A model generated the notes under the pieces. It was given only the letters and a program-made list of their open reading frames with translations, was not told where the DNA came from and ran no database searches. Shown here one piece after another: positions 44,549 through 46,661 of a DNA stretch of 64,000 nucleotides. Both the position numbers and the translations under genes were made by a program. Positions within the stretch are counted from its first letter, which is position 1; each line of letters starts with the position of its first letter. Source of the stretch: Actinomycetes bacterium (lineage in GTDB: Bacteria > Actinomycetota > CALGFH01); contig DASYUT010000053.1 in NCBI GenBank assembly GCA_036000965.1, positions 1 to 64,000 of the forward strand, given 5' to 3'.

Positions 44549-45205
44549 TCAGTTCTCCGCCCTCGTCACCCCGACGGGGCAGCTCACCCCGGTGCCGCCG
44601 ATGCCGCAATAGCCGTTCGGGACCTTGTCGAGGTACTGCTGGTGGTAGTCCTCGGCGTAGTAGAACTCCGACGCCACGCCGACCTCGGTCGTGACCTGGC
44701 CGTACCCGGCCGCGGTCAGCTCCTTCTGGTAGGCGTCGCGGGACGCCTCGGCGGCCTCGCGCTGGGCGTCGGACCGGGTGTAGATGGCCGAGCGGTACTG
44801 GGTGCCGACGTCGTTGCCCTGCCGCATCCCCTGGGTCGGGTCGTGGCTCTCCCAGAAGACCTTGAGCAGCTGCTCGTAGCTGACCTGGCCGGGGTCGAAC
44901 ACGACCAGCACGGCCTCGGTGTGCCCGGTGCGCCCGCTGCACACCTCCTCGTAGGTGGGGTTGGGGGTGAACCCTCCCGCGTAGCCGACCGCGGTGGTCC
45001 ACACGCCGGGGGTCTGCCAGAACGCGCGCTCGGCGCCCCAGAAGCAGCCGAGGCCGAAGACCGCCTGCTCCAGGTGGTCCGGGAAGGGCGGTGTCAGGGG
45101 CGTGCCCAGGACAGTATGGCGCTCCGGCACAGGCATCCGTGCCGACCGGCCGGGCAGCGCGTCCTTGGCCGCGGGCATGCTGGTCTTGTGGAAGCCGAAG
45201 ATCAT
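44549..45205 (-). CDS. msrA: Peptide-methionine (S)-S-oxide reductase
   Basis: 218-residue MsrA, which repairs oxidised methionine. The catalytic Cys54 is in GLGCFWGAE, with [18 protein letters not shown] and [19 protein letters not shown] as family hallmarks; C-terminal Cys residues recycle the enzyme. ATG 45205 has AAGGAG in front. An upstream in-frame ATG 45262 would add a Ser/Thr/Gln repeat encoded by a 15-bp tandem array and lacks a ribosome site. Two SigR/SigH-like promoters stand upstream, so induction by thiol-oxidative stress is expected. Confidence 0.95.
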
Positions 45206-45227
45206 GCGGGACTCCTTGCTCTTGGTG

Positions 45228-45262
45228 CTCGTCTGACTGGTGCTCGTCTGACTGGTGCTCAT
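45228..45262 (-). repeat. 15-bp tandem repeat in the msrA leader
   Basis: TCTGACTGGTGCTCG-type units repeat two to three times in the leader between the nearer promoter and ATG 45205. On the coding strand they read as Ser-Thr-Ser-Gln-Thr repeats if ATG 45262 were used. Confidence 0.85.
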
Positions 45263-45282
45263 CCTGGTCGTTCGCCAGCTGC

Positions 45283-45309
45283 AACGGTACGGCCACCACC
45301 CGCGTTCCC
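45283..45309 (-). promoter_or_regulatory. SigR/SigH-like promoter, proximal copy
   Basis: On the minus strand GGGAAC (45309-45304), a spacer of exactly 18 bases, and GTT (45285-45283). This matches the thiol-stress ECF sigma consensus of Streptomyces SigR and mycobacterial SigH (GGGAAY-N18-GTT). msrA is a known member of these regulons. Confidence 0.78.
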
Positions 45310-45354
45310 GCCTGTCGAGCACCCATGGGAACAGGCTGCCCTCGGAGAAGCTGC

Positions 45355-45381
45355 AACGGTACGGCCACCACCCGCGTTCCC
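45355..45381 (-). promoter_or_regulatory. SigR/SigH-like promoter, distal copy
   Basis: A second GGGAAC (45381-45376), 18-base spacer and GTT (45357-45355), identical in the spacer to the proximal copy and 72 bp away. Beyond it, two further partial copies of the GGGAACGCGGG end lie at 45382-45420. Confidence 0.75.
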
Positions 45382-45431
45382 GCCCGGCCCGCGTTCCCGC
45401 CCGGCCCGCGTTCCCGCCCGGCGAACTCGGC

Positions 45432-46661
45432 TCACGCCGGCGGGCGCTTGGGGATGAGCGAGCGGAGCTCCACGTCCTCGTCGGCGAGCTGGTCCGGGTG
45501 GTCCAGACGGGCCCAGACCAGGCGGCGGGCGGCGGCGATCTCCTTGAGACGGTTCACCCCGGCGGCGGCCCGCACCTCGGGTCCGAGCAGGTAGAAGGCG
45601 ACGAACGAGCGGTCCTCGACCTTGCCCCGCAGCACCACCCGGTCGTACCGGTCGGCGATGCCGACGACCTGCAGGTGCAGGTCCCACTGGTCGGACCAGA
45701 CGAACGGGACCGGCGCGAAAGGCACCCGCCGGCCGAGCATGCCGTGGGCGGCGGCGACCGCCTGGTTGTGGGCGTTGTCGACGTGCTCGACCCGGAGCCG
45801 GGTGCCGAGCCGCGGGTGCCACCAGGCGGCCACGTCCCCGGCCGCGAACACCCCGGGCACGCGGGTCTGGCAGTACTCATCGACGACCACGCCGTTGTCG
45901 AGCCGCACGCCGGAGCCGGCCAGCCACTCGGTCTCGGGGACAACCCCGACGCCGACCACGGCCAGGTCGCAGGCGACGACCCGGCCGGAGGTGGTGACCA
46001 CCGCCGCGACCCGGCCGTCGCCCCGGAACGCGGCCACTCCGTCGCCGGTGCGCAGGTCCACGCCCTGGTCGCGGTGGTACCCGGCCCAGATCCGCCCCAG
46101 CTCCGGACCCAGGCGGGGCAGCGGCAGGGGCGCGGCCTCGAGCATGGTGACCTCGAGGCCCAGGTCGCGGGAGCAGGCGGCCACCTCGGTACCGATGAAC
46201 CCGGCACCGACCACGACCACCCGGCGGCCGGGCGCCAGCTCGGCCCGCAGGCGCTCGGCGTCGCGGACGGTACGCAGCAGGTGGATGCCGGCCAGGCCGG
46301 CGCCGGGTACGTCGAGGCGGCGCATCCTCGACCCGGTGGCCACCAGCAGCCGGTCGTAGCCGAGCGGCCCGCCGCGGTCCAGCTCCACCGTGCGCGCGGC
46401 CGGGTCGAGCCGGGTGGCGCGGGTGCCCAGCCGCAGCTCGATCTCGTGCTCGGCGTACCAGCCCTCGGGGCGCAGGTAGAGCGCCTCCTCGGGCTGGCGG
46501 CCGTGCAGGAACGCCTTGGACAGCGGCGGCCGCTCGTAGGGGCGGTCCGGCTCGGCGCCGACGAGCACCACCCGGCCGTCGAACCCGGCCGCTCGGAGGG
46601 TCTCGGCGGCGCGGCCCCCGGCCAGGTTGCCGCCCACGACGACGCAGGTCCGGGCGGTCAC
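45432..46661 (-). CDS. FAD/NAD(P)-dependent ferredoxin reductase-type oxidoreductase
   Basis: 409 residues with two nucleotide-binding folds ([17 protein letters not shown] at the N-terminus, [15 protein letters not shown] in the middle) and the FAD motif [13 protein letters not shown]. The C-terminal 80 residues fit the reductase C domain found in ferredoxin or rubredoxin reductases of P450 and dioxygenase systems. No ferredoxin or oxygenase is adjacent, so its electron partner is elsewhere. GTG 46661 is the start that keeps the first fold complete; no clear ribosome site is seen. Confidence 0.92.

Follow-up and report, generated by a model that had tools for sequence, protein, structure and literature searches.

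Two exact copies of a probable thiol-stress promoter precede msrA in a duplication-prone actinobacterial genome

The gap upstream of msrA, a gene that serves to repair oxidised proteins, in the window (the whole 64-kb stretch of DNA that was analysed) holds a 36-bp repeat in two identical copies, each spanning the motif GGGAAC-N18-GTT, and comparison with known and related promoters makes it probable that msrA has a thiol-stress (SigR/SigH-group) promoter in two exact copies, P1 (distal) and P2 (proximal). As far as sequence can tell, both the promoter type and its target are already known, and the process behind the doubling is typical of the clade; the second copy seems to be a side effect of how readily this genome duplicates short intergenic DNA. 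The features of the locus are:

44549..45208, minus strand: msrA, peptide-methionine (S)-S-oxide reductase of 219 aa (TIGR00401, PF01625), with an ATG served by an AAGGAG ribosome-binding site
45223..45260, minus strand: 15-bp tandem array of 2.5 units in the msrA leader, in frame with msrA
45277..45312, minus strand: proximal copy of the 36-bp repeat, from 3 bp before the -35 element to about the predicted start site
45283..45309, minus strand: putative proximal SigR-type promoter P2, GGGAAC-N18-GTT, with its -35 element starting 101 bp before the ATG
45313..45348, minus strand: non-repeated 36-bp spacer between the copies, not convincingly similar to the flanks
45349..45384, minus strand: distal copy of the 36-bp repeat, 100% identical to the proximal copy
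45355..45381, minus strand: putative distal SigR-type promoter P1, identical to P2, with its -35 element starting 173 bp before the ATG
45371..45422, minus strand: 17-bp tandem array, 3.1 units of CCGGGCGGGAACGCGGG (minus strand), holding the P1 -35 element and two orphan -35-like ends
45432..46661, minus strand: upstream gene, a ferredoxin--NAD reductase-like FAD oxidoreductase, whose stop codon borders the msrA promoter region

The msrA gene was assigned by profile (TIGR00401, 221.5 bits against a cut-off of 108.1; PF01625 also matched), and its start, ATG 45208, was read from the sequence and is shared by homologues. The 15-bp leader array would encode STSQT repeats if an upstream ATG near 45262 were used; a longer MsrA from ATG 45262, with the array read as protein, was rejected given the better ribosome-binding site and the homologue match at ATG 45208. 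Between msrA and the ferredoxin reductase-like gene, both on the minus strand, lie 223 bp, which in the direction of transcription comprise the 17-bp array (45422-45371), the distal 36-bp block, the spacer, the proximal block and the 15-bp array, before ATG 45208; the last 17-bp unit runs into the distal block (45384-45349). A consensus scan of 45150-45500 found neither a sigma-70-type promoter nor an intrinsic terminator, a negative that carries little weight at this GC content.

The sequence-only reading had described GGGAAC, an 18-base spacer and GTT occurring twice, 72 bp apart and with identical spacers, in front of msrA, and its coordinates, spacing and copy number were right. On the minus strand, GGGAAC and GTT lie at 45309-45304 and 45285-45283 in P2, and at 45381-45376 and 45357-45355 in P1. 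They belong to a longer repeat, GGC-GGGAAC-N18-GTT-GCAGCT, whose two copies have zero mismatches, identical N18 spacers and a 72-bp offset, and which is laid out as repeat, unrelated 36-bp spacer and repeat, rather than as a simple head-to-tail duplication. A plain 72-bp tandem duplication was discarded, as it would have left a second 36-bp spacer after the proximal copy, where there is none, and the flanks hold no convincing match to the spacer. GGGAAC-N18-GTT occurs in the window at these two places only, against 0.22 expected, and two occurrences were reached in 4 of 100 shuffles. Because one duplication event would explain the pair, the question of chance concerns a single motif at that place, and for the msrA strand of the 223-bp gap the expected number of chance matches is ~0.0002 (taking the 13 reversed-pattern matches in 6.47 Mb as the background). 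The 25-mer core was not found elsewhere in the 6.47-Mb genome, even with 3 mismatches allowed, and when the DNA of the gap was searched against its own genome it matched only itself; a dispersed repeat family is hence ruled out.

Two further partial ends had also been reported. Both are present, but the two extra GGGAACGCGGG ends form part of the 17-bp array and, relative to msrA transcription, are located upstream of the distal copy, the GGCGGGAACGCGGG ends falling at 45388-45401 and 45405-45418; neither has a GTT at the right distance, so that both are bare -35 elements without a -10. The array is built from the -35 end of P1 and has no counterpart at P2, so that it probably arose after P1. 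Just upstream of the distal promoter copy, the array also carries G-tract runs on the msrA coding strand that match a G-quadruplex pattern. Two G-quadruplex-type motifs fall in the gap, in the array by the distal copy, versus 23 in the whole window, and a G-quadruplex was set aside as the main explanation given how common such motifs are there.

Both copies fit the SigR consensus of S. coelicolor, GGGAAT(G/C)-16-(C/G)GTTG (as quoted in PMC3489674), at every position except for C in place of T, which the SigH consensus of M. tuberculosis allows (as quoted in PMC3489674). They thus share with the SigR (S. coelicolor) and SigH (M. tuberculosis, C. glutamicum) promoters a GGGAAY -35 element, 18 nt to GTT and a following G, and the systems also agree in having msrA as a target and in the presence of a SigR-family sigma factor and a putative zinc anti-sigma factor in the genome; what sets the msrA region apart is its two exact tandem copies and two orphan -35 ends. 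That msrA is a known target, as had been proposed, agrees with its 6.59-fold increase in a C. glutamicum deletion mutant of rshA, which encodes anti-SigH (PMC3489674), and with the upstream regions of msrA in other genomes. GGAAY-N18/19-GTT was present within 150 bp upstream of 18 of 35 actinobacterial msrA genes (0.17 expected from shuffles), several of the 35 being close relatives of one another, so that the 18 are not independent events, versus one of 47 in other groups, with the split taken from record titles. An alignment of both copies with five such promoters and the genome's own sigR promoter, in which one row was slipped by the aligner, showed few invariant positions outside the GGGAA core and most of the GTT. 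Each of the other msrA upstream regions examined had at most one such promoter.

The -35 element of the homologues starts at most ~100 bp before msrA, apart from a single outlier at 158 bp that is probably due to chance. P2 is probably the ancestral copy and P1 the added one, because the 101-bp distance of P2 from the start codon fits the single promoter of relatives whereas P1 lies at 173 bp; it is from these distances and from the makeup of the 17-bp array that we infer the order of the duplication events. In the sister genome G001, no motif was found within 300 bp of its msrA. The sister genome G002 has a second, more distant msrA (G002:C715:4042-4625), with GGGAAT-N18-GTT ~105 bp upstream of the match.

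A scan for the same spacing elsewhere, as the sequence-only reading had suggested, gave 37 GGGAAY-N18-GTT sites genome-wide compared to 13 for the reversed control (p ~0.001), and no enrichment for GGGAAY-N19-GTT (27 versus 29 reversed). For GGGAAT with spacers of 14-24, a hand tally gave 11 sites at N18, while the other lengths averaged 4.5 (Poisson p ~0.007). By crude gene calls on selected stretches only, 12 of 29 N18 sites lay just before a gene, versus three of 27 N19 sites (p = 0.015); the genes behind N18 sites include a clpC-like gene, infC, two DUF4193 genes and an ECF sigma gene. The two sister genomes are also enriched (24 versus 3 and 30 versus 8, motif versus reversed), and the match to the thiol-stress sigma consensus is therefore backed, for both motif and N18 spacing, by genome-wide enrichment as well as by conservation at actinobacterial msrA. 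Both DUF4193 genes (L036, L037) have a GGGAACAACCGCC-type SigR motif in front, and both sister genomes contain motifs like it.

The SigR-group sigma factor on which the earlier proposal had been made to depend is encoded twice in the genome, both genes scoring above the curated TIGR02947 cut-off in a profile search:

C53:80885-81448: sigma gene 1 (TIGR02947), on the same contig, ~17 kb past the end of the window
C205:584-1150: sigma gene 2 (TIGR02947)

Each is directly followed by a small zinc anti-sigma gene, RsrA-like, with HxxxCxxC and a PF13490 (zf-HC2) match, and with a TIGR03988 score (59.5 and 55.3) just under the cut-off of 62.5. A SigR-type promoter lies ahead of both sigma genes: GGGAAT-N19-GTT at C53:80604-80631 for the C53 gene, and, as read from the sequence, GGAAT-N18-GTT ~330-350 bp before the sigma match for the C205 gene; GGGAAT-N18-GTT also precedes an rbpA-like gene behind the C205 pair, a name that is our own reading of a 40-residue fragment without a Pfam match. 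Both SigR/RsrA-like pairs (C53:80885-81711 and C205:324-1150) are complete and sit between molybdopterin-oxidoreductase-like and rbpA-like genes. Either the pairs are paralogues that arose by duplication or one of the contigs is foreign to the bin, the assembly being a draft of 358 contigs with an estimated contamination of 4.19%.

The local duplication habit that had been suspected from the window is borne out at the level of the genome. Over 284 kb of this genome, Tandem Repeats Finder detected 48 arrays per 100 kb, about three times the density in other actinobacteria (16 per 100 kb, in 205 kb), with 72 and 30 per 100 kb in the two sister genomes. A small subset above 72% GC had ~30 per 100 kb, and part of the excess hence goes with GC content. 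Arrays were five times denser between genes (144 per 100 kb) than in coding DNA (28 per 100 kb), and their periods were multiples of three in 88% of coding versus 39% of intergenic cases, as predicted by selection against frameshifts. Dense short arrays run across the whole window and at L133 and L137-L146, and are common to both sister genomes. The 17-bp and 15-bp arrays upstream of msrA resemble bacterial intergenic short tandem repeats of the kind seen throughout this genome, the difference from the usual case being that the duplicated unit here holds a recognisable core promoter.

In the mechanism that would account for these findings, disulfide stress would oxidise an RsrA-like anti-sigma factor and so release SigR, which when free would direct RNA polymerase to GGGAAC-N18-GTT at either copy, with msrA mRNA starts predicted just past each GTT, at ~45275-45278 (P2) and ~45347-45350 (P1). 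P1 would have been made by the short-duplication process common between genes in the clade, and slippage at its -35 end would then have given the 17-bp array. An offset of 72 bp would let a polymerase sit on each copy: both lie on one strand, and the distance exceeds the 35-bp step reported for mutual occlusion between start sites of E. coli tandem promoters (PMC8830795), which leaves room for separate occupancy. Native E. coli tandem promoters with two promoters on one strand and start sites >35 bp apart (PMC8830795) are a close likeness, and at such distances interference would stem from occupancy of the downstream promoter, not from occlusion. In synthetic non-overlapping promoter pairs, a polymerase at the downstream promoter can attenuate the summed output (PMC11339919); if a polymerase at P2 did likewise, the stress-induced burst of msrA would be stronger than from P2 alone, but probably by less than twofold. 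Unlike the E. coli and synthetic pairs, the msrA pair consists of identical copies that suit one and the same alternative sigma factor and appear to be born of duplication. Transcription from each copy, its redox control and the effect on output are predictions.

The main competing explanation, which we regard as unlikely though worth keeping in mind, is that P2 is the sole working SigR promoter, with P1 and the 17-bp ends being neutral debris of a repeat-prone intergenic region. It gains from P2 alone lying at the usual distance from msrA and from the many intergenic arrays without evident function in this genome; moreover, three arrays in one 223-bp gap have a probability of ~0.004 (~0.4%) at mean density, in a gap chosen for looking repetitive, which suggests a local hot spot. 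P1 is nonetheless letter-identical across the core promoter, and would be expected to be recognised like P2, barring effects of flanks or interference. At the other extreme, the clade's frequent intergenic duplications may supply promoter copy-number variants, of which the msrA promoter would be a selected case whose copies vary by strain and set the size of the response, a conjecture to which we give little credence.

It is very improbable that the repeats are not SigR promoters at all and that the 36-bp unit is another regulator's operator or a chance GC-rich motif. The G-rich array by the distal copy, with two of the window's 23 G-quadruplex-type motifs, might hint at this; against it, such motifs are common in the window, other msrA upstream regions are conserved only in their -35 and -10 elements, enrichment is seen for the N18 spacing but not for N19, and the genome encodes cognate sigma factors. 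An artefact of assembly or binning, for which the number of contigs and the contamination of the draft are the grounds, is hardly credible given the unique 36-bp spacer between the copies and their distinct flanks, a whole stretch of ~150 bp that fits in single reads, and sister genomes that are array-rich too. A thiol-stress promoter in duplicate is the reading that we prefer; if both copies work, msrA would provide a natural case in which local DNA duplication has doubled the core promoter of an alternative sigma factor, the duplicated unit matching that core almost exactly, and a simple test of how exact promoter duplication alters a stress response in a duplication-prone genome.

A tandem SigR-type layout is rare in this form but has precedent, and the present case is the only one observed with an exact copy in front of msrA. 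Pairs of GGGAAY-N18-GTT motifs separated by 25-55 bp turned up in seven of 397 actinobacterial genomes, in a search that demanded exact GGGAAY and so missed weaker pairs; by inspection, other cases included one protein-coding repeat and one repeat with matches on both strands. Two actinobacteria with large genomes (L191, L192) share a possible native tandem SigR-type pair ahead of a response-regulator gene: like that of msrA, it consists of two GGGAAC-N18-GTT sites on one strand, 70 bp apart, but its spacers differ, and hence it is no exact duplication, and the gene downstream is a different one.
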